Below, one piece after another: positions 29,546 to 45,717 of a DNA stretch of 64,000 nucleotides (its first letter is position 1; each line of letters begins with the position of its first letter). This DNA is from Nitrospirota bacterium (lineage in GTDB: Bacteria; Nitrospirota; JACRHJ01). The notes under the pieces were generated by a model. The model was not told where the DNA came from. It did not search any database and saw nothing but the letters and a program-made list of their open reading frames with translations. The stretch is taken from positions 335,280 through 399,279 of the forward strand of contig JAJYHX010000001.1 of NCBI GenBank assembly GCA_021784575.1. The letters are read 5' to 3'. A program made the translations under genes and the position numbers.

Positions 29546-30757
29546 ATGAAGTTCAAGACTTTTACCGCCCTCCGGCACCGCAACTTCCGCCTGTTCCTGA
29601 CCGGCCAGGCCATCTCGCTTGGCGGCACGTGGATGCAGTCGATGGCGCAGGGGTGGCTCGTTCTTAAGCTGACGGACTCGGCTTTTTACCTCTCACTTGT
29701 TCAGGCGATGAGCTCGCTCCCCATACTTTTCTTCTCGCTTGCGGGAGGGGTTATAGCGGACAGGATGAACAAACGGAGGCTTCTGTTGATTACACAGACA
29801 TCTTCGTTGGTGCTCGCGGCTGTGCTCGGAGTGCTGGTGAACCTGGGAGCGGTCAGGTTCTGGCACGTCATGCTTCTGGCGGGGTGCCTGGGCGTGGTGA
29901 ACGCCTTCGACATGCCCGGCAGACAGTCGTTCATAATCGAGATGGTGGGGCGCGAAGACCTTATGAACGGTATAGCCTTGAACTCCGCCGTCTTCAACGG
30001 CGCGCGCATCGTCGGCCCATCCGCCGCCGGGTTCCTGATAAGCGCCGTGGGGATAGCACTGTGTTTCTACTTAAACGCGCTTTCGTTCCTCGCGATTATC
30101 TTCATGCTGGCCATCATGCGTTTCGAGAAGGCCAAAGAGAAGCCCAAGGCCCGCCCGATGCTCAAAGAGCTGCGCGAGGGCCTGGTATACGTAAACAAAA
30201 CGCCGTCCATAAAGTATCTTATCCTCTTCGTCGCCATAACGAGCCTGTTCATGATCCCTTACATCGCGCTGATGCCGGTATTCGCGCGGGACATCCTGCA
30301 TATCGGCGCAAAGGGCCTCGGCGTTATGATGGGGTTCGCTGGAGTGGGGGCATTGGCCGGCTCGCTCTCGCTTGCGACGTTCGGCCACCGCGCAAGGAAG
30401 GCGGTCATCGCCTTTACAGCCGCGTTCATATCGGCCATGGCGCTCCTGGGCTTCTCACTCTCGCGGACGCCGCTTTTTTCGTACGCCCTCCTGATAGCCG
30501 TCGGCTGGGGGATGATAACCCAGTTCTCGACGGTGAACGCCGCAATCCAGCAGACCGTCCCGGACGAGCTCCGCGGCCGCGTGATGAGCCTTTACGTCCT
30601 TGTCATGCTTGGCTTCGTCCCGGTGGGCAACCTTATCATCGGGACGCTCGCGCACTATGTCGGCACACCGCACGCAGTCGCCGCGGGGGCCGTGGTATGC
30701 GTGATCACGTATGCCGCGCTGCTCGCCTTCGCGCGGCGGGAACTGCTCTCCTCGTAG
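29546..30757 (+). CDS. MFS transporter (EntS/MFS_3-like)
   Basis: 403 residues with about twelve membrane spans. FRLFLTGQAISLGGTWMQSMAQGWLVL at the N-terminus, the A-loop GGVIADRMNKRRLL (about 68-81) and NAFDMPGRQSFI are typical of the DHA3/EntS-like branch that exports siderophores or drugs. Only 8 nt after mqnD, so probably co-transcribed, but no link to menaquinone is evident. Confidence 0.92.
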   Translation: MKFKTFTALRHRNFRLFLTGQAISLGGTWMQSMAQGWLVLKLTDSAFYLSLVQAMSSLPILFFSLAGGVIADRMNKRRLLLITQTSSLVLAAVLGVLVNLGAVRFWHVMLLAGCLGVVNAFDMPGRQSFIIEMVGREDLMNGIALNSAVFNGARIVGPSAAGFLISAVGIALCFYLNALSFLAIIFMLAIMRFEKAKEKPKARPMLKELREGLVYVNKTPSIKYLILFVAITSLFMIPYIALMPVFARDILHIGAKGLGVMMGFAGVGALAGSLSLATFGHRARKAVIAFTAAFISAMALLGFSLSRTPLFSYALLIAVGWGMITQFSTVNAAIQQTVPDELRGRVMSLYVLVMLGFVPVGNLIIGTLAHYVGTPHAVAAGAVVCVITYAALLAFARRELLSS

Positions 30758-30863: not shown

Positions 30864-31517
30864 ATGAAGACTTGCATGGAATGCGGCAAGCGCGAGAAAT
30901 GCATTGAGATTTGTTTATATGTTAAGAGGCTTATCCCGGCTGTCGAGGACGGGCGGAACTCGGAAAGAGAGGTCTTGATGGCCCCGTCCAGCCTCGCGCT
31001 GGCCGCGGATTTATATTCCCTCTCGGAGTACAGCGGCGAGAGAACAAGGGCTTCAAGCCCGGCGATAGACCTTGCGGCGCTCTCCGCCTCGGAGAGGCGC
31101 GCTCTCCTGCTTATAGCCGAGGGCATGTCCTACGCGGAGACGGCGAAGGTCATTGGCGTCTCGCGCTCCACCGTCCAGAGCTATGTCGCGCGGGCCAGGA
31201 CAAAGTTTGCCATACAAAACCGGCATATAGTGGGAACAGGAAAAACAGCGGGAATAAAACCAACCACAGGAGGCGCCAGCATGAGCACACGCATAAGGCA
31301 TACCGCCGAAAAATCAGTCCGGAAACCTGCGGCGGAGAAGGCCGCAAAGGTCTCTCGCGGCAGGAAGCCCTCTCGGAAGCCGCATAAGACCGCCGTATCC
31401 GGGACCGGCAAAAAAGCGCAGGAACAGGCTGCGGCGGCGGGAGCGGTTTTCGAGAAGGGAAGTTACGACCCCGGCGTAATCAAGACAGGTACGGACATAA
31501 ACCATGACGGAGTTTAA
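30864..31517 (+). CDS. HTH regulator with N-terminal Cys cluster (phage late-gene activator candidate)
   Basis: 217 residues from ATG 30864. Cys-rich start CMECGKREKCIEIC (about 4-17), a linker, then a sigma-70-region-4/LuxR-like helix-turn-helix: LSASERRALLLIAEGMSYAETAKVIGVSRSTVQSYV (about 72-107). The rest is Lys/Arg/Ala-rich low complexity. Small proteins with this CIEIC-plus-HTH layout are found just upstream of terminase genes in other prophages. As first gene it may turn on the structural operon. Overlaps the next gene by 14 nt. Confidence 0.75.
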   Translation: MKTCMECGKREKCIEICLYVKRLIPAVEDGRNSEREVLMAPSSLALAADLYSLSEYSGERTRASSPAIDLAALSASERRALLLIAEGMSYAETAKVIGVSRSTVQSYVARARTKFAIQNRHIVGTGKTAGIKPTTGGASMSTRIRHTAEKSVRKPAAEKAAKVSRGRKPSRKPHKTAVSGTGKKAQEQAAAAGAVFEKGSYDPGVIKTGTDINHDGV

Positions 31518-31776
31518 CGGGAGGCCGGGAGCGGAGCGCGCCTGCGACAAGTGCGGCTCCGGCGTGCTGCTCAGAAGCCATATCGCTGAAATATGTCCCA
31601 TATGCGGGGAATATTTTTTCCCGGCATGCGCGGACAATGCGGCGGCGAAACCTGATACGGCTTATGTCGCAGCCGAGTGGAAGGAACACCGACTCGGCCT
31701 GATGATGAAAAAGGACGGCTGGCGCTGGATAGAGGTCTTGTCGCCTCCGCGCTGGTTCACAGAAGAGGTTGCATAG
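31504..31776 (+). CDS. small zinc-ribbon protein
   Basis: 90 residues. Two Cys pairs, CDKCGSGVLLRSHIAEICPICG (about 13-34), form a zinc ribbon. The rest has no known domain. ATG 31504 overlaps the regulator gene. Unrecognised phage protein. Confidence 0.65.
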   Translation: MTEFNGRPGAERACDKCGSGVLLRSHIAEICPICGEYFFPACADNAAAKPDTAYVAAEWKEHRLGLMMKKDGWRWIEVLSPPRWFTEEVA

Positions 31777-31784
31777 GTATATCA

Positions 31785-32120
31785 ATGACAAAACCGAAAA
31801 ACGACAGCCTGTTTGTAAACAACCGGCACTTGGCGGGTTTCAGGAAATTCCAGAACGCGGCCATTCGCGCGCTGTCACTGCTTTCCGGGGGCCTCAAGAA
31901 AAAGAAGGCCGACCGGGCGCTGAAGGTCTCCGACATGAAATCGCTTGTCTCGACTTACAAGGAAGCGGTCATGGGGGAACGGAACGTCCTGGGGCTCGTC
32001 GGAGAGCCGCAGGGGGAATGGCCCGAAGAGGTTGTGGTGCGGTGGGAAGACCCGGAAGGCGAGCCGGACGAGGCCGGTCAGCCGGAAGACGGTATGCCGG
32101 CGGCGGAGACCGAGGATTGA
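31785..32120 (+). CDS. putative small terminase-like protein
   Basis: 111 residues from ATG 31785 (AGG 8 nt upstream). Helical, basic N-terminal two-thirds (FRKFQNAAIRALSLLSGGLKKKKADRAL) and an acidic Glu/Asp/Pro tail that includes EAGQPEDGMPAAE. Position immediately before the large terminase, overlapping it, is that of a terminase small subunit; sequence alone does not prove it. Confidence 0.5.
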   Translation: MTKPKNDSLFVNNRHLAGFRKFQNAAIRALSLLSGGLKKKKADRALKVSDMKSLVSTYKEAVMGERNVLGLVGEPQGEWPEEVVVRWEDPEGEPDEAGQPEDGMPAAETED

Positions 32121-33412
32121 GCTTCCGCAGGCTGGGCATAAAATACAGGATGCTCCCGGCGCAGGCGGCCTTCCACCGCTCATGTTCAAAATACAAGGCG
32201 TATGTCGGAGGATACGGCTCCGGCAAGACGTATGCCGGATGCCATGAAGCGATAAGGCTCTCGGTGATAAACCGGGGACTGCCCGGCATGGTCGTAGCCC
32301 CCACATACGGGATGCTCGAAGACGCCACGCTGCCCGCCTTTCTCGGGATACTCGACCGCGCGGGTATCGCGTACGGGTGGCGCCGTTCAAGCCTGAATCT
32401 CCTGCTTCCGTGGGGGTCGAAGGTCATGTTCCGTTCGGCGGACTCTCCGGAGCATCTCAAGGGGCCGAGCCTCGCCTGGGCGGGCATCGACGAGGGCGCG
32501 ATAGTCTCGCGCACAGCGTGGGAGGTGTTGATCTCGCGCATCAGGCATCCGGAGGCGAAGAGGCTCCAGGCGTTTATCACCACAACGCCCGAAGGCTATA
32601 ACTGGCTCTTCGAGGAGTTCGTGGAGAAGCGGAAGAAAAGGCACCGTCTTATCACCGCAAGCACGCGGGAGAATATATATCTCCCGCCGGAGTACGCGGA
32701 AGACCTTGTGGAGGCCTATGGCGCAAACCTCGCCAGGCAGTACGTGTCGGGCGAATTCGTAAATCCCGGCGCGGGCCGCGTGTACGACGCCTTCTCACGC
32801 GAGAGGCATGTCCGGGACGGCCTGGAATACGACCCGGCCTATCCGCTCTCGATGGCGGTGGATTTTAACGTTGACCCGCTCCACGCCGCGCTGATACAGG
32901 CCGCGGATGGAGAGGTGCGGATAGTGGACGAGATCGTCATCCGCTCATCGAACACGTGGGAGTTGTGCGAGGCGGTGCGGAACCGTTACGGGGATATACC
33001 CGTAACCGCATATCCAGACCCGACCGGCAGGGCGAGGAAGACCGTCGGAACCCCGGAGGCGCCGTCTGATTTCGCGGTGCTTTCGATTAACGGGTTTACG
33101 GTTAGGGCCAGGAACTCCTCGCCGACGGTGCGGAACAGGGTGAATGCCGTAAACAGGGTGCTGGCCGGGGACGGCCGATTAAGCGGCGGCGGCCCGGCGC
33201 GTTTGGCAATCTCATCCGCGTGCCGCGAGAGCATACGGTCGTTCGAGCGCACATGTTGGAAGGACGGTTCATCCGTGATAGACAAATCGCATGGCGACGA
33301 GCACATGACCGACGCCATCGGATATTTCATAGAATACGAATTTCCCGTGCGCGTGCCGCAGAGGGTGGAATACGAAGGATTTTCAAGGCGCGCGGCTGCG
33401 AGAGGTTTTTAA
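32117..33412 (+). CDS. phage terminase large subunit
   Basis: 431 residues from TTG 32117 (GGAG 8 nt upstream, overlapping the previous stop); ATG 32150 is the alternative. Packaging ATPase Walker A GGYGSGKTYAG (about 31-41), Walker B WAGIDEGA (about 123), coupling motif FITTTPEG, then the RNase H-like nuclease domain with AVDFNVDPLHAAL (about 251) and later acidic positions. Cuts and pumps DNA into the capsid. Full length with catalytic residues intact. Confidence 0.93.
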   Translation: MSFRRLGIKYRMLPAQAAFHRSCSKYKAYVGGYGSGKTYAGCHEAIRLSVINRGLPGMVVAPTYGMLEDATLPAFLGILDRAGIAYGWRRSSLNLLLPWGSKVMFRSADSPEHLKGPSLAWAGIDEGAIVSRTAWEVLISRIRHPEAKRLQAFITTTPEGYNWLFEEFVEKRKKRHRLITASTRENIYLPPEYAEDLVEAYGANLARQYVSGEFVNPGAGRVYDAFSRERHVRDGLEYDPAYPLSMAVDFNVDPLHAALIQAADGEVRIVDEIVIRSSNTWELCEAVRNRYGDIPVTAYPDPTGRARKTVGTPEAPSDFAVLSINGFTVRARNSSPTVRNRVNAVNRVLAGDGRLSGGGPARLAISSACRESIRSFERTCWKDGSSVIDKSHGDEHMTDAIGYFIEYEFPVRVPQRVEYEGFSRRAAARGF

Positions 33413-33432
33413 AAAAAAGGAGGTCTATTATT

Positions 33433-34302
33433 TTGGAGCCTTCAGAGAAGCTTTCATTCACATTGGAGAAGGGTCTTGAGCTTAACGGAAACGACGTGCC
33501 GGAAGAAGTACAGCTCCTGCCGGCAGGTGAAGTGCGTCCGAAGGGCAAGATGCAGTTCCTGATGGACGAGGAAGGTATGCAGTTGATGCTCGCCGCCTTC
33601 AATAAATCCGACACCGACCTTGTCATCGACTACGAGCACCAGAGCCTCTCGGGTTCCGAGGCGCCCGCCGCAGGCTGGATAAAGGGACTTATCGACAAAG
33701 GCGCAGAGGGACTCTGGGCGAAGGTGCAGTGGACTGACCGCGCGAAGGAATATCTTCGGAAGCGGGAATACCGCTATATCTCGCCCGTCGTGCTCGTCCG
33801 CAAGAAAGACGGGCGCGCCGTTGAGCTGCTTGGGGCGGCGCTTACTAACCTGCCGGCCATCGACGGCATGGCCCCGGTCGTAAACTCTACGCAGAAGGAT
33901 TACAGGAGCCTGTACATGGAGGCGTTGAAGTTCCTTGGGCTCCCGGAAGACGCGGAGGCCGAGGCCGTGAGACTAAGGGCCGAGGCGCTTGTCAGGCCAT
34001 CCGGTTTCGTGCCGGAGGCGGAACATCTTGCGCTCAGGGAGACACTCAGGAAGTATGAGACGGAAGAGCTTGTGAGGCAGGCGCTTTCAAAGGGGAGGAT
34101 AACCCCGGCGCTTCTTCCGTGGGCCCGTTCGTACGCATTCGCAGACCCGGAAGGATTCCTGGAGTTCTGCGGGAAGGCCTCTCCGGCGGCGCTTGAGAGC
34201 AGACTCCCGGCGGATGCGCATCCCGCGCCCGCGCAGGCCAGGATAAACGGCCTGCTCGGGCTGGACGACAAAACCTTCTTCCGATACGCAAGCCATAATT
34301 AA
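33433..34302 (+). CDS. Mu gpI-like capsid protease/scaffold protein
   Basis: 289 residues from TTG 33433 (AGGAGG at 9 nt). The N-terminal half (LLPAGEVRPKGK, DLVIDYEHQSLSG, AAGWIKGL, YRYISPVVL, ALTNLPAIDGM) matches Mu-like phage I proteins, whose N-part is the prohead protease and C-part the scaffold; the helical, Glu-rich C-terminal half fits scaffolding. Stop directly abuts the portal start. Confidence 0.88.
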   Translation: MEPSEKLSFTLEKGLELNGNDVPEEVQLLPAGEVRPKGKMQFLMDEEGMQLMLAAFNKSDTDLVIDYEHQSLSGSEAPAAGWIKGLIDKGAEGLWAKVQWTDRAKEYLRKREYRYISPVVLVRKKDGRAVELLGAALTNLPAIDGMAPVVNSTQKDYRSLYMEALKFLGLPEDAEAEAVRLRAEALVRPSGFVPEAEHLALRETLRKYETEELVRQALSKGRITPALLPWARSYAFADPEGFLEFCGKASPAALESRLPADAHPAPAQARINGLLGLDDKTFFRYASHN

Positions 34303-35385
34303 ATGAACAAAAAAGACTACACAAAGGAAATCGCTGCGCCGACGCTTCGGGACAGGTGGTCGGATTATCCATCGTCCGGCCTCACTCCAAAGCGGCTTTC
34401 CCGGATACTTCGGGAGGCCGACGCAGGGTATATACATTTGCAGGCGGAACTTTTCTCCGAGATGGAAGAGAAGGATGCGCATCTTTACTCCTGCCTCCAG
34501 ACGCGGAAGCTCTCCGTTTCGGGATGTCCCTGGGAGATTGTCCCGGCAGCCGGGGCGGGGCCTGCCGAGACAGAAGCGGCTTCGTTTGTTTCCGAGTGCA
34601 TTACGGGAACTGACAATTTCGACGAGTCGCTCACCGACCTGATGGACGCGGTAGGAAAGGGATTTTCCGTATCGGAGATCATCTGGGAACTCGACCACGA
34701 GCGGCTTGTCCCGCGGCGCCTGAAGAAAAGACCGCAGAAAATGTTTACTTTTCTCTCGGAGGACGGCGTCCCGACCGAACGCCCGCGCCTTGTTACGGAC
34801 GACGATCCGGTTTACGGTATCGCTCTTCCGGCGTCGAAGTTCGTCGTTCACATATACCGCGCCGGGGCCGATTATCCCGAGCGGGGGGGTCTTTTAAGGA
34901 CGCTTTCCTGGATATACCTTTTTAAAAACTATGCGATCAAGGACTGGGTCTCGTTCTGCGAGGTCTTCGGGATGCCGCTCAGGCTCGGCGTATACTCGCC
35001 CTCGGCGTCAAAAGACGACAAGGACGCGCTCCTTGAAGCCGTGACCAGCCTTGGCTCAGACGCGGCAGGGATTATATCCGAAAGCACCAGGATACAGTTT
35101 ATCGAATCCGCGAAACGCGGCGACGGCGGGCCGTACAAAGACCTTGTGGACACGATGAACAAGGAAATATCCAAGGCCGTCCTGGGCCAGACCCTGACGA
35201 CGGAAGCAGGCCACAGCGGAAGCCTTGCCGCCGGGCTTGTCCATGACGGCGTGCGAAAGGACATAGTCCGCGCGGATGCCCGCTCGCTTGCGAGAACCAT
35301 AAACCGCGATTTATTGCGCCCGATGACGGCGCTGAACTTCGGCCCGGACGTAAAACCGCCGGAATTCAGATTCACAACCAACTGA
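34303..35385 (+). CDS. DUF935 / Mu gp29-like portal protein
   Basis: 360 residues, somewhat shorter than Mu gp29. Family features: LQTRKLSVSGCPWEIV, DAVGKGFSVSEIIWEL (about 110-125), DWVSFCEVFGMPLRLGVY (about 212-229) and LGQTLTTEAGHSGSLAAGLVH. Forms the dodecameric DNA gate of the capsid. The gpF-like gene that usually follows is missing. Confidence 0.92.
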   Translation: MNKKDYTKEIAAPTLRDRWSDYPSSGLTPKRLSRILREADAGYIHLQAELFSEMEEKDAHLYSCLQTRKLSVSGCPWEIVPAAGAGPAETEAASFVSECITGTDNFDESLTDLMDAVGKGFSVSEIIWELDHERLVPRRLKKRPQKMFTFLSEDGVPTERPRLVTDDDPVYGIALPASKFVVHIYRAGADYPERGGLLRTLSWIYLFKNYAIKDWVSFCEVFGMPLRLGVYSPSASKDDKDALLEAVTSLGSDAAGIISESTRIQFIESAKRGDGGPYKDLVDTMNKEISKAVLGQTLTTEAGHSGSLAAGLVHDGVRKDIVRADARSLARTINRDLLRPMTALNFGPDVKPPEFRFTTN

Positions 35386-35395
35386 GGAGGTTTCG

Positions 35396-35806
35396 ATGTC
35401 GGCACTGACAAAGGACAGAGACACTGTTAGGAAGGAAGGGGTGTATGCTTCTTACCCCGTGGAAGGCGGGGCGGTAATTTATGCGGGGAGCATGGTCTGC
35501 ATAGGCGCGGATGGCTATGCCGTCCCGGCTTCGGATACTGCGGGGCTAAAGTTCATGGGCATATCACGCCAGTACGTGGACAACTCCGCCGGCGCAGGCG
35601 GAAGCGTCGAAGTGGAAGTCTGGAGGCGCGGCTGTTTTAACCTCGCCGCGTCAGGCATTGCGCTTTCCAATGCGGGAGACCCGGTATACGCGCTTGACAA
35701 CCAGACGGTGGGCCTCACTGCCGCGTCCACCAATCACGTCGCCTGCGGGAAGATATCGGAATACGACACGGCGTCCACAGTATACGTGGACATCAGCAGG
35801 ATATAA
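35396..35806 (+). CDS. capsid decoration (DUF2190-like) protein
   Basis: 136 residues, rich in beta strands and Ala/Gly/Ser. VEGGAVIYAGSMVCI and AGDPVYALDNQTV recall the DUF2190 or capsid-cement family of Mu-like and related phages. Lies between portal and major capsid genes, AGGAGG 6 nt before the ATG. Confidence 0.75.
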   Translation: MSALTKDRDTVRKEGVYASYPVEGGAVIYAGSMVCIGADGYAVPASDTAGLKFMGISRQYVDNSAGAGGSVEVEVWRRGCFNLAASGIALSNAGDPVYALDNQTVGLTAASTNHVACGKISEYDTASTVYVDISRI

Positions 35807-35815
35807 GGAGGGAAG

Positions 35816-36709
35816 ATGATAATCAACCAGGCAAATTTATCGGCGCTTTATACAGGCTTTTCGGCAATATTCAAAGACGTGTTCGACAACGCGACTGTGC
35901 TCTACAGGCGAGTCGCGACCGAAGTCCCGTCCACTTCCCGCCAGGAGCAGTATAACTGGCTGGGCCGCGTGCCCCGTATGCGCGAATGGCTGGGGGAGCG
36001 CGTAATACAGAACCTCTCCGCCTATTCGTACACCATAAAGAACCTCGACTGGGAAACCACGGTCGCCATTGACAGAAACGACGTGGAAGACGACGCCGTC
36101 GGAATATATATGCCAATGGTCAAGGCGCTTGCCGACGCTGCCGCCACGCATCCCGACGAACTGGTCTTCGATCTTATGACCGGCGGCTTTGCCAACCCCT
36201 GCTACGACGGCATGTCGTTTTTCAACGCTGCGCATCCGACCGGCGCCTCTACCCAGTCCAACAGGGGCACTGCGGTGCTCACGCCAACGAGCTATGCCGC
36301 GGCCCGCGCGCAGATGATGTCGCTTACGGACGAGCACGGGAAACCGCTTAACGTGGTTCCCGATCTCCTCGTAGTCCCGCCGCAGCTTGAGAGCGCCGCT
36401 CTGGGAATATTGCACGCCGACGTCTACGAGGACGGCACCACTAACGTATTCGTGGATTCCGCAGACCTTGTAGTGGCTCCGTATCTCTCCGCCAGCCCGA
36501 CGGCATGGTATCTGTTGGACACGAAGAAGGCCGTGAAGCCTTTTATCTTCCAGAGGAGGAAGCCGCCCGTTTTCGTGGCCAAGGATACGCCGGATGACGA
36601 GGGGGCGTTTATGAAGAGGGAATACGTCTTCGGTGTGGATTCGCGGGACAACGCAGGCTACGGTCTCTGGCAGCTCGGGTACGCGTCAGACGGAACGACG
36701 CTGAATTAA
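35816..36709 (+). CDS. Mu gpT-like major capsid protein
   Basis: 297 residues, the family's usual size. IINQANLSALYTGFSAIFKDVF at the N-terminus, WLGRVPRMREWLGERV (about 43-58), MSFFNAAHP and DLLVVPPQLESAAL (about 183-196) are Mu-like head subunit motifs. Stop is 2 nt before the gp36-like gene. Confidence 0.95.
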   Translation: MIINQANLSALYTGFSAIFKDVFDNATVLYRRVATEVPSTSRQEQYNWLGRVPRMREWLGERVIQNLSAYSYTIKNLDWETTVAIDRNDVEDDAVGIYMPMVKALADAAATHPDELVFDLMTGGFANPCYDGMSFFNAAHPTGASTQSNRGTAVLTPTSYAAARAQMMSLTDEHGKPLNVVPDLLVVPPQLESAALGILHADVYEDGTTNVFVDSADLVVAPYLSASPTAWYLLDTKKAVKPFIFQRRKPPVFVAKDTPDDEGAFMKREYVFGVDSRDNAGYGLWQLGYASDGTTLN

Positions 36710-36711
36710 CC

Positions 36712-37104
36712 ATGTATATATCAATATCCGATTTATATGTCCCTGAGGACGTATTGATACGTCTCACGGATGACGAGTCAAGCGGTTCAGTAAATACCGC
36801 GCGCGTGGACGACGCAATTTCTTCCGCGCAGTCGGTGGTGGACGCCTCGCTCTCGATGCAGTACGATGTGCCGCTTGAAAACCCGCCGCAGCTCGTAATA
36901 AAGCTGACGACGGACATGGCGGTATATAACCTTTACCTCCGCCAGGCAATTGTCCCGGCGGAGGTAAAGGACTCCTATGTCAGGGCGCTTGAGACATTGC
37001 AGAACATCGCAGACGGCGCCCTTTTGCTGTCCCTGGCCATTCCCGGAATATCGGTTTCGGAAAGTCGGAGAGAATTCAGCCGGGAAAGCATGGAAGACTT
37101 CTGA
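36712..37104 (+). CDS. DUF1320 / Mu gp36-like head-tail connector protein
   Basis: 130 residues. YISISDLYVPEDVLIRLTD, ARVDDAISSAQSVVDASL and KLTTDMAVYNLYLR match DUF1320 (Mu gp36), a head-completion or adaptor protein. Confidence 0.88.
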   Translation: MYISISDLYVPEDVLIRLTDDESSGSVNTARVDDAISSAQSVVDASLSMQYDVPLENPPQLVIKLTTDMAVYNLYLRQAIVPAEVKDSYVRALETLQNIADGALLLSLAIPGISVSESRREFSRESMEDF

Positions 37105-37123
37105 TGGAGGCGGAAGAATATAA

Positions 37124-37555
37124 ATGGCGATTTATAAACGAAAAGACCTTCTGAACGCCGTGGCCTCGGCCCTGTCGCCCATGCTTATATCCAACGGAGG
37201 CTCTGCGCGTGCGGTTTATGTAAGTGATATTACAAAGCCGGAGGATATTCTGGCGAAATCGCCCGCATTGCCATCCGTCGCGGTCGTTTTCCTGTCATCG
37301 ACATGCAGGCCGGGACCATACCAGGCTTACGCGGAACGGATCAATTTCGGTATTGTCGCTATGGCGCGGTATGATATTTCGCCGACGCCGCTCGATTTGC
37401 TGGAGGACGTGCGGCCTCTGCTGATTGGGAAGGACCTGGGCGTAGGGACTTATCCTCCGAGGTTGGAGAGTGAATCGCCCGTGTCGGTGCGTGACGATTT
37501 CGCATACGCTTCCGCGAACTATTACCTGGTCCGGTATGTAACGCTGGAAAGCTGA
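37124..37555 (+). CDS. Mu gp37 (DUF1834)-like protein
   Basis: 143 residues. Second adaptor position after gp36. LPSVAVVFLSSTCRPGP then AYASANYYLVRYVTLES at the C-terminus is compatible with gp37-like tail-terminator proteins, but similarity is weak. RBS GGAGGCGG upstream. Confidence 0.6.
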   Translation: MAIYKRKDLLNAVASALSPMLISNGGSARAVYVSDITKPEDILAKSPALPSVAVVFLSSTCRPGPYQAYAERINFGIVAMARYDISPTPLDLLEDVRPLLIGKDLGVGTYPPRLESESPVSVRDDFAYASANYYLVRYVTLES

Positions 37556-37569
37556 ACGAGGAGGCTTGA

Positions 37570-37980
37570 ATGCCAGGCGCTTCTTTTACCGCGGTTGGCC
37601 TTACACCGCTTAATTTCTCCGTGAACCCGTGTTATCCGGGCAAGGTCACGCTGGATACCGGTTTCATAAATTTAAAGAGCGAGGGAGGCGAGGATATTTT
37701 TCTTCGCAAGGCCGATAGTTCTGCGCTCATAGCGCTGAATTTCTCGGGTCTTACGGCATCGGATTTCGACGGCGGGTTTGACTATGCCGCCGGCGCGCAG
37801 GCTGCCGGCACCCAGAGCCTCGTCAACTGGTTCATAAGCCAGGCCGGCAAAACCTTCACTTATGATGACCCGTTCGGCAACTCGCATTCGGTCGTATTCG
37901 GGCAGGAAAAATTAGAGTTTTCTTTTACGGAGGATGGCGCGTATAACGGCGCCGTGCTTCTCAAGGAGATAATAGGCTGA
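37570..37980 (+). CDS. unidentified tail protein (possible tube or connector)
   Basis: 136 residues, beta-rich: LNFSVNPCYPGKVTLDTGFINLKS, then GAQAAGTQSLVNWFISQAG and LEFSFTEDGAYNGAVLL. Not recognised. Its place before the large tail protein suggests a tail-tube-like or stopper protein. Overlaps the next gene by TGATG. Confidence 0.55.
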   Translation: MPGASFTAVGLTPLNFSVNPCYPGKVTLDTGFINLKSEGGEDIFLRKADSSALIALNFSGLTASDFDGGFDYAAGAQAAGTQSLVNWFISQAGKTFTYDDPFGNSHSVVFGQEKLEFSFTEDGAYNGAVLLKEIIG

Positions 37981-40556
37981 TGCAGGCGATAAACCAGAAT
38001 TTTGCAGCGGCTGCGGACGGGCATCAGCCGGCATGTATACTCGCCGTATTTCATTTCGCCAGCGGCGACGTATTCATATCGGATAGGACGATAACACCGC
38101 CTGACGGCCCTGCCTTTTCCGGACTTGTAACTGATTGGGCGGCGCCTGCCGTTTCTTACAAGGGGCCGTTCTCAATCGCTATTCCGGAGATTGAGATTGA
38201 AATAGCCAATTCTGGAAATCCGCCGTTCTCGACGTTAATAGAATCAAACGATGCGGAAAACACCGAAATAGAACTGTTCGCATGGTTCGAGGGGACAAAC
38301 TACGCCGATAAAGAGGCGATAGGGAAATTTAAAATTTCCGCAAACAATTCGGGTAGCGGAATCGGGTCGGCGGCTGTTTGCTATGGTGATAATTCCGTCA
38401 GACTGCAACTGGCAGGGGCCTTTAAAGGAAGGGAACGACAGGTCGGGACTGTCATAAGCCGGGACATATGGCCAAACGCGGAACCTCACGCAATCGGCAA
38501 GGCGGAAAACATTATTTATGGTTCCGTACAAGACGTCCCGTGTCCGGCAGTCTCCGCCGGGGCGGTTACTACGCTTGTCTCTGATATTACGCTGTCCCAG
38601 ACAGACGACATCGAGCTCTCCATTGCGCCGGGCGAGATGGCCTTTCCGCCTTCCGGTGTGGTTCAGGTCGGCGACGAGAGGATAAGCTATACCGGATTAT
38701 CCGGGAAGGTATTGACCGGCGTATCGCGCGGCGCCGAGGGGACACAGGCATTCTCGCACAATAAGGGCGCGAAGGTCTTTGAGGTGCTGATCTCCTACGA
38801 CTATCTTGTGGCGGGGCATCCGGTTCAGTCTATAGGAAACGTCTATGTGGACGGCATACGGGTAACCTCCGGGGTAAGCATACTGACCGACGATGGGAAC
38901 GGAAGGGCTAAGCTGTCGTTCAGCGACAGATTCATCCTGGAGAAATCGGTGGATTTAAGCGTCAGCCAGGGCAGCCATTCCCATCAGAACACCACGTGGA
39001 GCGGGCAGGGAAACCAGTCATATTCGACGCGCTGGACAGCATCGGTAAACCCGAACTGGGCGGTAAACGAACATGTGGGCAACGCATTCCTGGATTCCGC
39101 GGGTAATTATTTCTATATCATAGACAACGGCGCAAACTATCTTGACGTGCGGAGCATCAACGGCTATGCGCTGGCCCCCGGCGCTTATACCGGCACGATA
39201 ATACAGACTCAAACCGAGACCATCTTTCAGGATGCGGTAGAGGGTACGTTTGACGCCCCGGTTGCCGGCGACGCCTATGCGTTGTGCGACAAAAGCCTGA
39301 ACGATTTTGGCGCAATAATAGTCCCGGGCGGCTATATCGACACGGTAAGGTCGTTTCTGGCGACAGACAAGGGGTACATTGTCGGCGCCAAGATATGCGC
39401 CGCCATCGGACAGATGACATATAACGGTATCGGCATGAGCACGGTTCAGGGGGGAATATTTGGCGGCGCATATGTCCAGGGCGGCGGGTCTTCAATGCAG
39501 GTATGCAAGACCGCCGGGACTATTATCCGCAGCACGGTCGGCGAGGTTTCATGGGGCGACTTTTCGAATATGGCGCTGCGCGCCACGTTTTCTTCCGGAC
39601 TGGCCGCAGCCGCATTTTTTGAACAATGGGTCGAGGTAACTTACGTCCCGTATCATACCTCGACTCCTGCAACAGGTGTTGCGCTATCCGGCAGATCCGC
39701 GGCTGATTATGTTATTGGCCGGACTGTCAGTTGCGACGTAAACGGCATATTTGACGACACCGCCGGAAGCGTCACGGGGACGCCCGGCGCGCTTATAGAA
39801 AATCCTGCGGATGTCATCAGTCATTTCCTCATGAATTATTTGGATATGCCGATATCTGAAATTGACGGTTCGTTTGCCGTGGCCAGGTCTTCGCTGGAGG
39901 GCGCAATTACGGGAGGATATTCGTTTGCCGGGGTAATAAACACAGCTGTGGACGGTTTTAAGTTCATCGAGAAACTACTCCGGCAGTCTCGCCTTGCAAT
40001 GATGCACAACGGATATGTTGCGAAACTGAAATTCCTGTCGAACAGCCCACAGTCCGCCGACATGACAGTAGAGACGGAAATGGTGCCGATGGGGGGCATA
40101 AGAATCTCTCGCACAGGGAAGGGCGAGATAATAAATTCTCTCGACCTTCATTACCAGAAGGACTTCATCAATGGCGGAAGATCCGCGGCATATCTGGCCG
40201 TCTGTTCATCGTCCGCACTTTATCCTTATGGCGGGGATCCGATCTCTGTGTCTAAATACGGCGAATTAACTCCAGCGCACCCATTTCTTTTCGATTTTGT
40301 CGTCTCAGACTCGCAGGCGTCAGACATGCGTGATTTTTTTATCGCGCGTTATAAAGACGTCAAGAGGCGGATAGAAGTTTTTACTCTTCTTGACTGTTTT
40401 GGTATCGAGATGGGAGACATAATTTCATTTGACTGGCCGACGACGTATTTCTCTCTGTCGGGCGCGCAGTTCTTCGTCGAGGAGGTCTCATTTATTCCCG
40501 GAAGTTTTAAGAAAAAAAGGCCGGATCAGCTCCGGCTTACTGTGCGGGAGGCATAG
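37980..40556 (+). CDS. large phage tail / baseplate hub-like protein
   Basis: 858 residues. N-terminal domain (about 1-170) resembles DUF2163/hub-type tail proteins (VFHFASGDVFISDR, KGPFSIAIPEIEIEIAN). A PSGVVQVGDERISYTGLSG...VSRGAEGTQAFSHNKGA unit (about 222-262) is common in phage tail proteins. A long beta-rich middle (about 315-560) may bind ligand, and the C-terminal region (VINTAVDGFKFIEKLLRQSRLAMMHNG, about 655 onwards) looks like a hub core. No tape measure precedes it. Somewhat AT-richer than the head genes. Confidence 0.7.
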   Translation: MQAINQNFAAAADGHQPACILAVFHFASGDVFISDRTITPPDGPAFSGLVTDWAAPAVSYKGPFSIAIPEIEIEIANSGNPPFSTLIESNDAENTEIELFAWFEGTNYADKEAIGKFKISANNSGSGIGSAAVCYGDNSVRLQLAGAFKGRERQVGTVISRDIWPNAEPHAIGKAENIIYGSVQDVPCPAVSAGAVTTLVSDITLSQTDDIELSIAPGEMAFPPSGVVQVGDERISYTGLSGKVLTGVSRGAEGTQAFSHNKGAKVFEVLISYDYLVAGHPVQSIGNVYVDGIRVTSGVSILTDDGNGRAKLSFSDRFILEKSVDLSVSQGSHSHQNTTWSGQGNQSYSTRWTASVNPNWAVNEHVGNAFLDSAGNYFYIIDNGANYLDVRSINGYALAPGAYTGTIIQTQTETIFQDAVEGTFDAPVAGDAYALCDKSLNDFGAIIVPGGYIDTVRSFLATDKGYIVGAKICAAIGQMTYNGIGMSTVQGGIFGGAYVQGGGSSMQVCKTAGTIIRSTVGEVSWGDFSNMALRATFSSGLAAAAFFEQWVEVTYVPYHTSTPATGVALSGRSAADYVIGRTVSCDVNGIFDDTAGSVTGTPGALIENPADVISHFLMNYLDMPISEIDGSFAVARSSLEGAITGGYSFAGVINTAVDGFKFIEKLLRQSRLAMMHNGYVAKLKFLSNSPQSADMTVETEMVPMGGIRISRTGKGEIINSLDLHYQKDFINGGRSAAYLAVCSSSALYPYGGDPISVSKYGELTPAHPFLFDFVVSDSQASDMRDFFIARYKDVKRRIEVFTLLDCFGIEMGDIISFDWPTTYFSLSGAQFFVEEVSFIPGSFKKKRPDQLRLTVREA

Positions 40557-40558
40557 GA

Positions 40559-40795
40559 ATGGATTGGCTTACCCGGATAATGGCAGCGGCGGCTGGATTT
40601 CTTTTGGCGTTCTTTTATTCCCGCATGATGAAGGCGGCGGACCAGGCGCCTGAGAAATATATGAGCAAGCACGACTGCGAGACCACACGCATTGAGTGCA
40701 GGCGCAATAACGAGCTTTGGCTGGACGAGGTCTTGCAGAGGCTTGAACGCATGGAATCAAAAATGGACAGGATGGCCGAGAGGATATTTGAATAA
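40559..40795 (+). CDS. membrane-anchored coiled-coil protein
   Basis: 78 residues: one N-terminal membrane helix (about 5-25), then a heptad-patterned helix (LWLDEVLQRLERMESKMDRM, 53-72). Ends 1 nt before the DUF5675 gene. Typical of small lysis-region phage proteins (holin or antiholin-like); not assigned further. Confidence 0.65.
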   Translation: MDWLTRIMAAAAGFLLAFFYSRMMKAADQAPEKYMSKHDCETTRIECRRNNELWLDEVLQRLERMESKMDRMAERIFE

Positions 40796-40796
40796 C

Positions 40797-41222
40797 ATGG
40801 AACTGGGACTTAAGAGGACCTGGCCCGATTCAAACTGCACCATCGGAGAGCTTTTTATCGGCGGCGGCGCGTCGCGGGAATGCTATATCCTTGAACCGCC
40901 GGTGCGAGAAATCGAAGGTATGCCTTTAGCGAAGTGGAAGGTGCCGGGCCATACCGCTGTGCCGCGCGGCAGATACAGGGTAATACGAAGATTTTCCCCA
41001 AAGCACGGGAAAGTCGTGCCGTGGTTGACGGGAATACCCGGGTTTGAAGATGTGGAAATCCACTCCGGCAATACGGTCATCGACACGGAAGGCTGCCTGC
41101 TTCCGGGCATGGAAAGAGGGAATGAGTCTGTTTTTAAAAGCGTTGCCGCATTTAATTCTCTGGATTTAAAAATTGCCGGCGCGATTGAAAGCGGCGATGA
41201 GGTCTTTATAACAATATCGTAA
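40797..41222 (+). CDS. DUF5675 family phage protein
   Basis: 141 residues from ATG 40797. LKRTWPDSNCTIGELFI, CYILEPPVRE, AVPRGRYRVIRRFSPKHG, VEIHSGNTVIDTEGCLLPG match DUF5675, found in lysis or tail regions of many phages. The conserved His/Asn (HSGN) and Gly-Cys recall L,D-transpeptidase-like folds, but activity is unproven. Confidence 0.8.
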   Translation: MELGLKRTWPDSNCTIGELFIGGGASRECYILEPPVREIEGMPLAKWKVPGHTAVPRGRYRVIRRFSPKHGKVVPWLTGIPGFEDVEIHSGNTVIDTEGCLLPGMERGNESVFKSVAAFNSLDLKIAGAIESGDEVFITIS

Positions 41223-41237
41223 CCAAAGGAGGAAACA

Positions 41238-41408
41238 ATGGATAACCCGAAAACGACCATTACCGGAGTAATCACCGGAATTATAAGTCTGCTGGGATTC
41301 TTTCATGTCGGTATTCCGAGCTGGATAACGCCTCTGGCGACCGCCATAGGCGTAACGCTGATTGGTATTTTCGCAAAAGACGACGGCAACAGCCAGACTG
41401 CCAAATAG
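41238..41408 (+). CDS. small two-span holin-like protein
   Basis: 56 residues. AGGAGG 5-6 nt before ATG 41238. Two hydrophobic stretches (about 10-25 and 28-46) and a polar tail KDDGNSQTAK. Size, topology and position in the lysis block fit a phage holin. Confidence 0.65.
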   Translation: MDNPKTTITGVITGIISLLGFFHVGIPSWITPLATAIGVTLIGIFAKDDGNSQTAK

Positions 41409-41424
41409 GGAGAATTTCAGGGAC

Positions 41425-41655
41425 ATGACGATCAGTCTCATTTCCGGTGTTATCGGCCTTTTAAGCGCGCTGGCCGCCGTGTTCCTCAAATTCTGGCCAG
41501 AATTGGAAAGAAAGCGCGATTTAAAAATAAGTCTGGAGACTTCAGATGAATTCGGGCGGGAACTTTTGGAAGGGAATGATATTGGCGCTTCTGTGCGCAT
41601 GTCTGATGAGATTGACCGCGTGCGCCGAGAGGAAGGTGGCGATACTTCAATCTGA
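41425..41655 (+). CDS. Rz-like inner-membrane spanin candidate
   Basis: 76 residues from ATG 41425: N-terminal membrane helix (3-22) and a charged helical periplasmic part. Overlapped out of frame by the lipoprotein gene at 41546, the classic Rz/Rz1 arrangement. Short for an i-spanin, so confidence is moderate. Confidence 0.55.
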   Translation: MTISLISGVIGLLSALAAVFLKFWPELERKRDLKISLETSDEFGRELLEGNDIGASVRMSDEIDRVRREEGGDTSI

Positions 41656-41779
41656 CCATCTTATTGAAACCATACCCGACAATCATTGTGTCGATTGCCA
41701 CGGGAGTTGGTACGACGGGCGCAAAGTAATTTCAGGCGGATACCTCCTGGACATCTTCAAGGAGTTGCAGAACAAATGA
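41546..41779 (+). CDS. Rz1-like outer-membrane lipoprotein candidate
   Basis: 77 residues in a different frame from the Rz-like gene it overlaps by 110 nt. Signal peptide with lipobox (ALLCACLMRLTAC; Cys at about 26), then AILQSDHLIETIPDN and SGGYLLDIFKELQ, a layout seen in small phage lipoproteins with o-spanin roles. Start at 41546 keeps a Lys in the n-region; ATG 41576 is possible. Overlaps the next gene by ATGA. Confidence 0.6.
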   Translation: MNSGGNFWKGMILALLCACLMRLTACAERKVAILQSDHLIETIPDNHCVDCHGSWYDGRKVISGGYLLDIFKELQNK

Positions 41780-42972
41780 AAAAATATCTACTTATACGTT
41801 TAAAACCCAGGCTTGCCAAACGGGCGCTTGTGGTGGTAATTATTTTTTTGTGCGGATGCGCGATGTGCGCATTTGCGGCGCCCGTCGGTATGACAAAGCA
41901 GACCGCCGACATCCTCTACGCGCACAGGCTCGTGTTCCAGAACGCCACGTCGAGCCTGCATCACGAGATTACCGGCTCTGTCGCCGGCGTCACATCCTTT
42001 AATGGTCGCACGGGGACAGTAACTCCCGCGCTTTTGGACTACAGTTCGTTCTTCCCGACAAAGCCGGTGTTCCAGAACGCCACGTCAACCCTGCATCACG
42101 AGATGGTTAATTCCGTCGCGGGAGTAGCTTCTTTCAACGGGCGCACCGGCGCGGTTCTTCCGATGGCGAACGACTACACCCCCGCGCAGGTGGGCGCGGA
42201 GAGCCAGGGCGCGTTCTCGGCATATTCATCGAACATCGCGCACAACGGCACTCCGGTAAAGGGCTACACGAACATTTCCGGCCTCGCCGTGAATGCGCTT
42301 CCGCACAATGCGTTCAATTCTTATTCCGGGAACCAGGCCGTGAACATTTCCGGGCTACAGGCGGACGACACAACCTACGCGAAGGCGGCCCTTCTGCGTT
42401 CCGGCGGCACGATGACCGGGCCGATTAAGGGCGGCGTGCAGGCGACGTTCGGGAATACTTCTACGGCGAATATCTGCGCGACCGGCATGGTCATGGCATC
42501 GGGTATGGGGAAGTTCACGAACATATCCACGAGCGGCTATTACTACGGCAACGGCTCGAAGCTCACGGGCGTGACGGCGGCGGCATCGCTGGCTTACGTC
42601 TCGTCTCACCTGACATCCAATATAGCGATGACGACCGCCAACACGTATTATAACGGGCCCGCAGTAAGTCTTGGCGCAGGGACATGGTTGGTGGTTGGGA
42701 GTGTCCTGTGTTATAACGGCAGCGGCGGTTACATATATACCGGCAAACTGTGGGATGGCACGAATGTATATTCATCCACCGAAGCGCAAGACGCGGGGTC
42801 GTCGGTAGAATATTTACGATTAAATCTGTCTGCGATTATAACCGTGGCATCCTCCGCCACAATATACATTGCCGCAGCCTCCAAAGGCGGGAGCAGTTAC
42901 ATGTATGCGGCGTGTCCCGACAACGGCGCCGGCAACACGGCGAGCTACATCAACGCCATTAAAATACAGTGA
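41776..42972 (+). CDS. tail-fibre-like protein with signal peptide
   Basis: 398 residues from ATG 41776. A basic n-region and hydrophobic helix ending AFA-A (about 14-37) form a Sec signal peptide. Two repeats follow, each FQNATS(S/T)LHHE...SVAGV(T/A)SFNGRTG (about 45-130); SFNGRTG is a classical phage fibre motif. Then fibre-like segments with QVGAESQGAFS and a C-terminal beta domain (about 285-398) like those in phage receptor-binding proteins. Phage fibres normally lack signal peptides, which makes this unusual. Confidence 0.75.
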   Translation: MKKYLLIRLKPRLAKRALVVVIIFLCGCAMCAFAAPVGMTKQTADILYAHRLVFQNATSSLHHEITGSVAGVTSFNGRTGTVTPALLDYSSFFPTKPVFQNATSTLHHEMVNSVAGVASFNGRTGAVLPMANDYTPAQVGAESQGAFSAYSSNIAHNGTPVKGYTNISGLAVNALPHNAFNSYSGNQAVNISGLQADDTTYAKAALLRSGGTMTGPIKGGVQATFGNTSTANICATGMVMASGMGKFTNISTSGYYYGNGSKLTGVTAAASLAYVSSHLTSNIAMTTANTYYNGPAVSLGAGTWLVVGSVLCYNGSGGYIYTGKLWDGTNVYSSTEAQDAGSSVEYLRLNLSAIITVASSATIYIAAASKGGSSYMYAACPDNGAGNTASYINAIKIQ

Positions 42973-42983
42973 GGAGCGAATAG

Positions 42984-43895
42984 ATGAAGAAGTATAACTG
43001 CTCGATACTCAGCCTGACAACCGTTATTGGACTGCTCATAACACTTGGAATCTCCGTGGCCGCCCTGGCAGACTTCACCGTCAACAAGCCGATGCGCGAG
43101 GCGTTCCAGATGTTCAATTCCGACGGTTCGCCCCGGACGAACTGCGACATGACAAAGTTCAGCGCGGAGACCTGGCTGGACGACTCGCGCGTCCCTCTTT
43201 CGTGGACATTCCGGAACCAGTCCACGGGCGACTACGACGCCACGGCGACACCTTCTACCGCCGGGGACTACGAGGCGATATTCTTCTACGACAACACGAC
43301 CATCGGGACGTTCACCGATGACGTGCGCCTGTGGGACATCGACACGATGTATGCGAACGCCGGGCCGCGCATGGCGAATATCAGCACGGCGATAACGGCG
43401 ACGCCGGGGAATGTGTGGGCGAACGGGACGAGGACGCTGACGGGCGCCGAATGGTCGTATGCGAACAACACGAGCATCAACAATTACCTGACGACGGAGC
43501 ACGGGACGGGCTTGTGGAACGCCGCCGGGAATGTTACCGTTCTGCCCTTCCAGGGCGCGGCGACATACGAGACGGTCGCCCAGGGAAATGACGTTCACAT
43601 AACGCATGGGGATTCGGTATCAATCCCGTATTCCGTCGGCAAGGACATCTCGGGCTATACGGTCTGGTTCGGGGCGAAGGCGAATACGACAGACACGACA
43701 TATGCAATCGTGCCGAGAGATATAACCGCATACGTTACGAGTGCCTCAACCGGCTCCGGATTGATTAACCTCTCGACGATGGATACCGCGCTTCCTACCC
43801 GAAAGTATGCGGCGCAGGTGGAGATAAAGAACGGGAGCACGGTTAATACGGTGCTGAAGTTCAACCTGTATATTGATGTGAGTGTGCTGAATTAG
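42984..43895 (+). CDS. second phage fibre/baseplate-like protein with signal peptide
   Basis: 303 residues. N-terminal signal peptide (ILSLTTVIGLLITLGISVAALA, about 8-29). The body has NVWANGTRTLTG (about 147-158), common in phage proteins, and a C-terminal immunoglobulin-like beta domain (VHITHGDSVSIPYSV ... LKFNLYIDVSVLN), reminiscent of baseplate/BppU-like N-domains. Follows the previous gene by 11 nt with GAGGAGCG as RBS. Confidence 0.7.
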   Translation: MKKYNCSILSLTTVIGLLITLGISVAALADFTVNKPMREAFQMFNSDGSPRTNCDMTKFSAETWLDDSRVPLSWTFRNQSTGDYDATATPSTAGDYEAIFFYDNTTIGTFTDDVRLWDIDTMYANAGPRMANISTAITATPGNVWANGTRTLTGAEWSYANNTSINNYLTTEHGTGLWNAAGNVTVLPFQGAATYETVAQGNDVHITHGDSVSIPYSVGKDISGYTVWFGAKANTTDTTYAIVPRDITAYVTSASTGSGLINLSTMDTALPTRKYAAQVEIKNGSTVNTVLKFNLYIDVSVLN

Positions 43896-43956: not shown

Positions 43957-44328
43957 ATGCGGAAGCTCCACATCGAATGGCAGGGATATTTCCCGTTTAA
44001 GGGGAAAGTTATACGGAGCAAGGCTGACGACAGGGCGGGCGTCTATAAAATTTCAAAAAAACAGAAAGACGGGAGCCTCAAGCCGGTTTATGTCGGGCAT
44101 GCGGACAGTATCAAGATGAGGCTTTTGGTGCATGCAACTTCAACGGATGATTCCTGTGTATCAATAGAACTAAGAGACGGGGGTTGTCAATTCCGCTTTG
44201 CCTATTTATACACCAGGGAAGACATAGCCGCCGTGGTGAAGGCCCTTTATGTGCGCTATGCCCCAAAATGTAATATTGGAGAAAGTCTGCCGGCAGAGAC
44301 CGAGGAAGTGGAGATAAATTATAACTGA
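43957..44328 (+). CDS. GIY-YIG-like small protein
   Basis: 123 residues. GVYKISKKQKDG and YVGHADSIKMRL (about 29-55) resemble the GIY-YIG nuclease core with Tyr and Gly conserved, followed by a Lys/Tyr C-terminal helix (AVVKALYVRYAPKCNIGE). The catalytic Arg/Glu positions are uncertain. RBS GAGGAGG, with TTTATAATAAG just upstream as a promoter -10, so it may be expressed separately from the phage operon. Confidence 0.6.
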   Translation: MRKLHIEWQGYFPFKGKVIRSKADDRAGVYKISKKQKDGSLKPVYVGHADSIKMRLLVHATSTDDSCVSIELRDGGCQFRFAYLYTREDIAAVVKALYVRYAPKCNIGESLPAETEEVEINYN

Positions 44329-44331
44329 AAA

Positions 44332-45717
44332 TTACGCATCCAGCTTGTACTTATTCAAGAGGCGGTGGATGGTCTTTCGGTCTATCCCCGCCTCTTTTGC
44401 CGCGCGGGATATGTTGTTCCCATTCCTGGCCAGCAGGTCCGAGAGATAATCTTTCTCGAAATCCACGAGCCAGCGTTTCTTGGATTCCTTGAAAGAAGCT
44501 CCCTCCTGTATCGCGGGTGTCCGCAACCTTGTCGAAGTTCTGATAAACTCCGGGAGGTCTTCGGGATTAATTATCTCGCCTGAACAAAGAGTCACCGCGC
44601 GGGAAACAACATTCTGCAACTCCCGCACGTTTCCAGGCCAGGCGTATTCCTCCAGAAGCTTCATCGCTTCCGCCGATATGCCGGTCGGGCCGTTCCGGGA
44701 AGATCTGACAAACTCTCCAAGAAAATGGTCCGCAAGCAGAGGGACGTCTCCCACTCTGTCGCGAAGCGGAGGAAGTTTTATGCTTATTACGTTCAGCCGA
44801 TAGTATAGGTCCTCCCTGAATGTTCCCCGTCCAACACCTTCTTCCAAATTGCGGTTAGTTGCGGCGATTAAACGTATGTCGATGTCTATCATCTTCCTGC
44901 CGCCGACCCGCCTGAATTGCCTTTCCTGCAGAACCCGCAGGAACTTTGCCTGAAGGTTCAGTCCCATCTCGCCTATCTCGTCAAGAAAAAACGTCCCGCT
45001 GTTCGCAAACTCCAGAAGACCTGGTCTTGTAGTGTCCGCCCCCGTAAAAGTCCCTTTTTCATGCCCGAATAGTTCCGACTCCAGCAGGTTTTCCGGAAGC
45101 GAGGCGCAGTCAACCGGCACGAATGGTTTCCCGTTGCGGTTGCTGTTCATGTGTATGCTTCTGGCCACAAGCTCCTTGCCCGTGCCGGATTCGCCGTATA
45201 TCAATATATTCGTATCGGTAACGGAGACCTTCCTTATCGTGTCGAATACCTTCCTCATGGCGAGTGATGAGCCGAGCATGTTATCCATGCCGTGACTCTG
45301 CGCCAGTTGCGTGCGGAGGTAGCGGTTCTCTTCCTCGAGGTTCTTATGCCTCACCGCCCTTTCCAGCGCAACCTTCAGCTGCTCGGCGGAAAACGGCTTC
45401 GCAAGATAATCGAAAGCCCCTTCCTTCATTGCCTCGACTACGTTTGGAATGGTGGCATATCCGCTGATAAGGATAACCATGCAGTCCGGGTTTATTTCCT
45501 TGCCGATGCGGAGCAAGTCCAGGCCGTTTAAACCAGGCATGGCGAAATCTGTCAATATAATAGACGGCATCTCGCGTCCGATAATCTCCGCGGCTGTCGC
45601 CGAATCCCGGACGGTGGTGCATTTATATCCGAGTTTCCCGATAATGCGGGCGCAATTATCCAGCATGTCCGCTTCGTCGTCGATTACGACTATCTTTATG
45701 CTCTGCGGGTCGATCAA
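44332..45717 (-). CDS. NtrC-family sigma-54 response regulator
   Basis: 461 residues. Receiver domain (VVIDDEADM, phospho-Asp in ILTDFAMPG about residue 57, Lys in LAKPFS), AAA+ domain with Walker A GESGTGKE (about 172), sigma-54 contact loop GTFTGAD (about 224), FLDEIGEM Walker B and a C-terminal Fis-type helix-turn-helix (SRAAKEAGIDRKTIHRLLNKY). Starts with TTG overlapping the kinase stop (TTGA). Activates sigma-54 promoters on phosphorylation by the adjacent kinase. Confidence 0.95.
   Translation of the reverse strand: MIDPQSIKIVVIDDEADMLDNCARIIGKLGYKCTTVRDSATAAEIIGREMPSIILTDFAMPGLNGLDLLRIGKEINPDCMVILISGYATIPNVVEAMKEGAFDYLAKPFSAEQLKVALERAVRHKNLEEENRYLRTQLAQSHGMDNMLGSSLAMRKVFDTIRKVSVTDTNILIYGESGTGKELVARSIHMNSNRNGKPFVPVDCASLPENLLESELFGHEKGTFTGADTTRPGLLEFANSGTFFLDEIGEMGLNLQAKFLRVLQERQFRRVGGRKMIDIDIRLIAATNRNLEEGVGRGTFREDLYYRLNVISIKLPPLRDRVGDVPLLADHFLGEFVRSSRNGPTGISAEAMKLLEEYAWPGNVRELQNVVSRAVTLCSGEIINPEDLPEFIRTSTRLRTPAIQEGASFKESKKRWLVDFEKDYLSDLLARNGNNISRAAKEAGIDRKTIHRLLNKYKLDA

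Follow-up and report, generated by a model that had tools for sequence, protein, structure and literature searches.

What would a cluster of phage structural genes do in a bacterial genome when it holds no gene for replication or integration? This question is raised by the module at 30864-43895 of the analyzed window, a 64-kb stretch of a Nitrospirota genome (G000:C6:335280-399279; module coordinates are positions within this window). The module comprises about 19 plus-strand genes, which overlap or lie at most 29 bp apart up to fibre 2, and forms an unbroken one-strand operon of about 13 kb with packaging, head, adaptor, ring, hub, lysis and fibre genes (Table 1). A survey of open reading frames (ORFs) and protein families found no gpF-like gene, tape measure, integrase, transposase, repressor or replication gene in the module. 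A preliminary description of this DNA had listed both these absences and the packaging-to-fibre gene set, with intact frames behind a regulator, and the ORFs and Pfam matches bear it out on both counts. Its further view, that the module resembles a domesticated gene transfer agent (GTA) rather than random decay, is supported by a common locus in relatives, by synonymous divergence (dS) that matches the flanking genes and by low ratios of nonsynonymous to synonymous divergence (dN/dS). We conclude that the module is probably a domesticated, vertically inherited phage structural cluster that would work like a GTA.

Conservation of the locus across the family

The family was sampled with six genomes from two genera of the phylum Nitrospirota, namely G000, four more of its genus and one of the other genus. 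A search for the major capsid protein gpT was positive throughout, both in the four further members of the genus and in the single genome of the family's other genus. A check of the same locus in related genomes had been proposed in the preliminary description; by BLASTN, the module adjoins the same MFS gene and NtrC/histidine-kinase pair in 6/6 genomes of the family, except that the right junction of G003 and G004 was not seen. More specifically, both flanks lie on a single contig in G005, the right side of G001 was located on contig C38, and the left side of G003 on C207 runs from the MFS gene through the regulator to the terminase. The left flank of G002 is on C215, a contig that stops soon after the MFS gene; no 5' half of the module turned up in this 75%-complete genome. 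Outside genomes with both MFS and NtrC homologues carry them on different contigs or far apart, so no empty site could be read.

Further copies of the cluster are present on L053 and L087, two IMG/VR contigs from one metagenome. The capsids of this locus form one clade with 95/96 support. The large terminase was detected at E<=1e-30 in 6 of 396 sampled genomes of the phylum, five of which belong to this family, and its ATPase and nuclease motifs are invariant. In the window, G005 and L053, the protease gene precedes the portal gene and gpF is absent; L030 and L068 have the reverse order. This shared, unusual order and the absence of gpF, tail tube and tape measure point to a single origin before the two genera split. 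L053 (1-12879) is an IMG/VR 'viral' contig with a gene border exactly at its start and at its end, which is what trimming of a predicted provirus would produce, and such loci may be catalogued as viruses.

Purifying selection and divergence with the host

G000 and G001 differ by a median dS of about 0.41 in the module and 0.43 in the flanking genes; between G000 and G002, the values are about 0.8 and 0.88. Because module dS equals that of the host flanks, it argues for long residence and not for mobility. Nearly all module genes have a dN/dS of 0.04-0.3. Within the genus, the portal, cement and capsid genes lie at 0.04-0.06 and most others at about 0.06-0.23, while the highest values (0.21-0.46) belong to the regulator, the zinc-ribbon gene and fibre 1 where it can be aligned. 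The module is under strong purifying selection and co-diverges with its host, which is the outcome of the dN/dS measurement that the preliminary description had also suggested.

A decaying prophage remnant without function would account for the loss of integration, replication and tail-length genes, and pseudogenes in relatives had been named beforehand as its sign. No internal stop occurs in the aligned module genes, whose frames are intact at dS from 0.4 to above 1, where drift should have produced about 100 stops; a selection-free simulation at the same distances gave 101-138 stops and left fewer than 1 of 17 genes intact. The sole exception among the relatives is the regulator of G003, which is frameshifted (L135 1122-1723), possibly through a sequencing error in this fragmented draft. 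Furthermore, the locus is common to two genera. A functionless remnant is thus exceedingly improbable, and a decayed prophage was ruled out by dN/dS and synteny.

To place the module among known elements, we used GTA features from a review (PMC11841831). A phage-derived head, packaging and structural cluster without replication or integration genes is found here, and it is passed on vertically at one fixed site and maintained by purifying selection.

Mobility genes and borders of the module

An integrase or Mu transposase elsewhere in the same prophage, which the preliminary description had regarded as evidence against domestication, was not encountered. All five tyrosine-recombinase matches of G000 lie on contigs other than the 623-kb module contig, and the Mu-transposase C-domain (Mu-transpos_C) had no match in the six genomes, in a weak search in which no control genome matched either. 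No direct or inverted repeat of at least 9 bp joins the two searched border regions. With neither such a repeat nor a tyrosine recombinase on the contig, the module does not show the own integrase and attachment sites of PICI/P4-like satellites.

These results bear on a further explanation, a defective or helper-dependent prophage for which another resident phage supplies the tail genes in a satellite-like manner. Such an arrangement would fit the presence, in G002, G003 and G005, of a second set of tail genes that includes a tail tube and a tape measure, and the resemblance between a fibre of this second set in G005 and the module fibre. However, G000 and G001, both about 97% complete, gave no such tail genes with the tail-tube profile and the two tape-measure families searched, and yet keep the module intact. 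The lack of an integrase on the contig and of an attachment repeat in the searched borders, together with the long residence indicated by dS, likewise makes helper dependence improbable.

G002 also holds additional, diverged gpT and hub genes on contigs C247 (L025) and C194 (L054), those on C194 beside tyrosine recombinases, which suggests that the genus has related prophages that are active.

A Mu-type head and a reduced tail

The head is of Mu type, as judged from gpT, portal, gpI and gp36. The label 'Mu-like' in the preliminary description therefore holds for the head genes, but the terminase is closest to other phages in the phage records and the tail genes are of siphophage type. The large terminase matches Pfam Terminase_6N/Terminase_3, and its profile matches the solved terminases 4zni and 4idh, which we take to be those of P74-26 and Sf6 and which would suit headful filling.

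The extent of tail reduction becomes apparent from related clusters. On L052, a contig of a metagenome-assembled genome, gp36 is followed by gpG, a gp37-like gene, a tail-tube candidate of 425 amino acids (aa), a small gene, a 587-aa tape-measure candidate, a 122-aa ring gene and the hub. In the second clusters of G003 and G005, a tail-tube candidate of 468-479 aa comes first, the tape measure (PhageMin_Tail, E 2e-17 in G005) next and the hub last. In all copies that cover this region (G000, G001, G002, G003, G005 and L053), ring and hub stand directly after gp37. Since the 136-aa gene is homologous to the gene after the tape measure in related phages, both the tail tube and the tape measure are missing from the module. 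A tail-tube profile and two tape-measure families had no match anywhere in G000 or G001, a result that leaves room for a tail of an unrelated family. The AlphaFold model of the ring (pLDDT 77) gives weak but consistent matches to tail-tube and tail-tip proteins (best E 0.002), and the hub has no match in the phage records. The tail is probably a stub.

The second structural cluster of G005 (G005:C4 about 93200-115550; L072 8747 to L056 11549) is apparently complete, with lysozyme, fibres, tail tube, tape measure and hub. One of its fibres is 54% identical to that of the module. It adjoins an apparent type III restriction system, and no integrase was found in the fetched stretch.

The reduced tail lends weight to the possibility that the module encodes a domesticated particle that serves a different purpose: a PBSX-like device for killing or lysis, which may package but not deliver host DNA, or a capsid for release or storage. 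Such a particle would be built in the same way, but its benefit would be killing, lysis or packaging in place of gene transfer. The same selection evidence fits it, efficient injection of DNA is doubtful once tail tube and tape measure are lost, and fibres and regulator diverge fastest. However, terminase, portal, protease and hub are all strongly constrained, although they would be superfluous in a device for lysis or storage only. Tail-based killers, moreover, as a rule retain the whole tail, and it is often the head that is lost. PBSX of Bacillus subtilis, likewise a domesticated phage particle, packages host DNA but serves to kill and not to transfer; its contractile tail is complete, unlike the strongly reduced tail of the module. 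Taken together, we regard a different job as unlikely, with a PBSX-like killer as the main rival to GTA-like function, more so given the reduced tail.

Some observations weigh directly against GTA-like function. The absence of tail tube and tape measure makes DNA delivery doubtful, the structure prediction of the hub reached a pLDDT of only 36 and its fold was left unused, and the frameshifted regulator of G003 departs from the otherwise intact frames. Furthermore, particles of known GTAs hold 4-14 kb of DNA (PMC11841831), whereas the capsid here, if it kept the size of its phage relatives, would have room for more than the 13-kb cluster.

Lysis cassette and gene content

The lysis cassette consists of small membrane proteins, a DUF5675 protein and nested Rz/Rz1-type frames. 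Both spanin frames, a pair absent from the preliminary description, remain open and constrained in G001 and G002. Structure comparison gave no credible relative of the DUF5675 protein. It occupies the slot that holds an M15 peptidase endolysin in the sister copies of G005 and L053, and it may be a wall-active enzyme. At the head of the operon, regulator orthologues are present in G001, G003 (the frameshifted copy), G004 and G005. An additional small ORF lies beyond the 3' end of the module, and the ORFs on either side look like ordinary genes of the host. Matches to Pfam and PHROGs identify the large terminase, protease, portal, cement protein, gpT and gp36.

Table 1. Genes of the module and its borders, with positions in the 64-kb window.
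Feature	Position	Strand	Evidence and remarks
MFS transporter, left flank host gene	29546..30757	+	left of module in G001, G003, G004 (3' part), G005; on left-flank contig in G002
Regulator: 4-Cys N-terminus, sigma-70 region-4-like helix-turn-helix, basic tail	30864..31517	+	Pfam Sigma70_r4_2 E 2e-12
Small zinc-ribbon-like protein	31504..31776	+	weak zinc-ribbon matches; kept in G001, G003, G004, G005, L053
Putative small terminase subunit	31785..32120	+	position alone; kept in G001, G003, G004, G005; no Pfam/PHROGs family match
Large terminase subunit	32150..33412	+	Terminase_6N E 1.5e-13; phrog_2 E 1.5e-41; alternative upstream start possible near 32119
Mu gpI-like protease/scaffold	33433..34302	+	Mu-like_Pro E 3e-61
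Mu-type portal	34303..35385	+	Portal_Mu E 2e-102; dN/dS 0.04-0.06 within genus
Capsid cement/decoration protein	35396..35806	+	Phage_cement_2 E 2e-6; phrog_1731 E 3e-35
Major capsid protein gpT	35816..36709	+	Mu-like_gpT E 2e-99; dN/dS about 0.05 within genus
gp36 head-tail adaptor	36712..37104	+	Phage_Mu_Gp36 E 1e-23; phrog_195
gp37-like neck/terminator protein	37124..37555	+	position and conservation in G001-G005 and L053; no family match
136-aa ring protein, tail-tube fold	37570..37980	+	homologue of gene after tape measure in L052, L055; AlphaFold model
Tail hub/tip protein, 858 aa	37980..40556	+	homologue of hub gene in L052, L055, L056
Small membrane protein, possible holin/antiholin	40559..40795	+	one N-terminal hydrophobic stretch; kept in G001, G002, G003, G005, L053
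DUF5675 protein in endolysin slot	40797..41222	+	DUF5675 E 2e-24
Holin-like small membrane protein	41238..41408	+	hydrophobic; 86-88% conserved in G001, G002; no family match
Rz-like inner spanin	41425..41655	+	membrane anchor, overlaps next frame; dN/dS 0.14-0.16
Rz1-like spanin lipoprotein, nested in another frame	41546..41779	+	phrog_456 Rz-like spanin E 0.002; lipobox-like LTAC; dN/dS 0.09-0.14
Fibre protein 1	41776..42972	+	collagen/fibre-like repeats; just first 65 aa alignable in relatives, 57-68%
Fibre protein 2, conserved C-terminus	42984..43895	+	homologues in G001 (74%), G002, G005, L053
Small GIY-YIG-like ORF between module and right flank	43957..44328	+	weak Pfam match; 74-88% identity in G002, G001; dN/dS 0.09
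NtrC-type response regulator, right flank host gene	44332..45717	-	same neighbour in G001 (C38), G002, G005

Proposed mechanism and comparison with known systems

If the module works like a GTA, its upstream helix-turn-helix regulator would switch the operon on in some cells, where Mu-type capsids would assemble and the terminase would fill them with host chromosomal DNA, the predicted cargo because there is no phage genome to package. A very short tail made up of gp36, gp37, one tube-fold ring, the hub and the fibres would close the capsid. The holin-like, DUF5675 and Rz/Rz1-like proteins would then lyse the cell and set the particles free, and fibres and hub would bind related cells. A ComEC-type uptake gene is present in five of the six genomes; it is a common gene, and its presence is permissive and lends weak support. 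Expression, packaging of host DNA, the stub-tail shape and delivery to other cells are all steps that we infer.

The module resembles RcGTA-type GTAs of Alphaproteobacteria (Rhodobacter, Caulobacter) in its prophage-derived terminase, portal, protease and capsid cluster, the lack of replication and integration genes, and vertical inheritance. It differs from them in that its head is of the Mu gpT/gp29 type, it lacks a tail tube and a tape measure, its operon also includes the lysis genes, and it belongs to another phylum. Homology with the RcGTA lineage was not found: apart from the Mu-type head and the absent tape measure, Rcc01698_C matches one hub homologue weakly (E 0.23), and structural matches to RcGTA parts are at the level of the fold only. 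Mu-headed siphophages, of which Pseudomonas B3, DMS3 and JBD30 are examples, offer the other comparison. The protease, portal, cement, gpT, gp36, ring and hub of the module are homologous to L052 or portal-related records. In contrast to these phages, the module has no transposase, repressor, gpF, tail tube, chaperone or tape measure, carries the protease before the portal and uses another terminase type.

The best reading of these comparisons is that the element derived independently from a Mu-headed siphophage. The fuller proposal, an independent GTA lineage that lost tail tube and tape measure, became fixed in the whole Nitrospirota family and transfers DNA with a stub tail, is put forward tentatively, at somewhat less than even chances. 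Dd1 is a short-tailed particle whose likeness to the module could lie in shape alone. Like the Bartonella GTA, VSH-1 and VTA, it represents an independent domestication of another phage (PMC11841831).

Related clusters in other Nitrospirota families

Mu-like clusters L030, L085, L061 and L066 of families f13 and f19 have tape-measure candidates of 172-279 aa, compared with 737-1095 aa in f21 and f26. G092 and G235, two genomes of one genus, share the hub end and the right flank at 93% DNA identity. Treating these clusters as further short-tape GTAs was dropped, as right flanks differ between genera where compared, some genomes have two copies and several tape measures are long; we treat them as prophages or leave their status undecided. 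Three separate clusters (L030 16099-16863, L064 5583-7008, L056 12617-13327) carry a PilZ-like gene on the opposite strand, either immediately downstream of the hub or with one gene in between, a proximity that may reflect chance or a regulatory link.

Implications for the Nitrospirota

New GTAs are not yet definitively locatable from sequence, and finding unrelated ones is an open problem (PMC11841831). Of 17 papers in an open-access library that mention both 'gene transfer agent' and 'Nitrospir', none of the 15 listed reports a Nitrospirota GTA in its title or the start of its abstract. GTAs are known from few phyla, and the module provides a worked sequence case, built on a common locus, matched dS and low dN/dS; one such locus (L053) is listed as a virus in a viral-sequence database. 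If active, the module would offer a natural experiment on the minimum tail required of a transducing particle, and would constitute a route of gene exchange in uncultured Nitrospirota.

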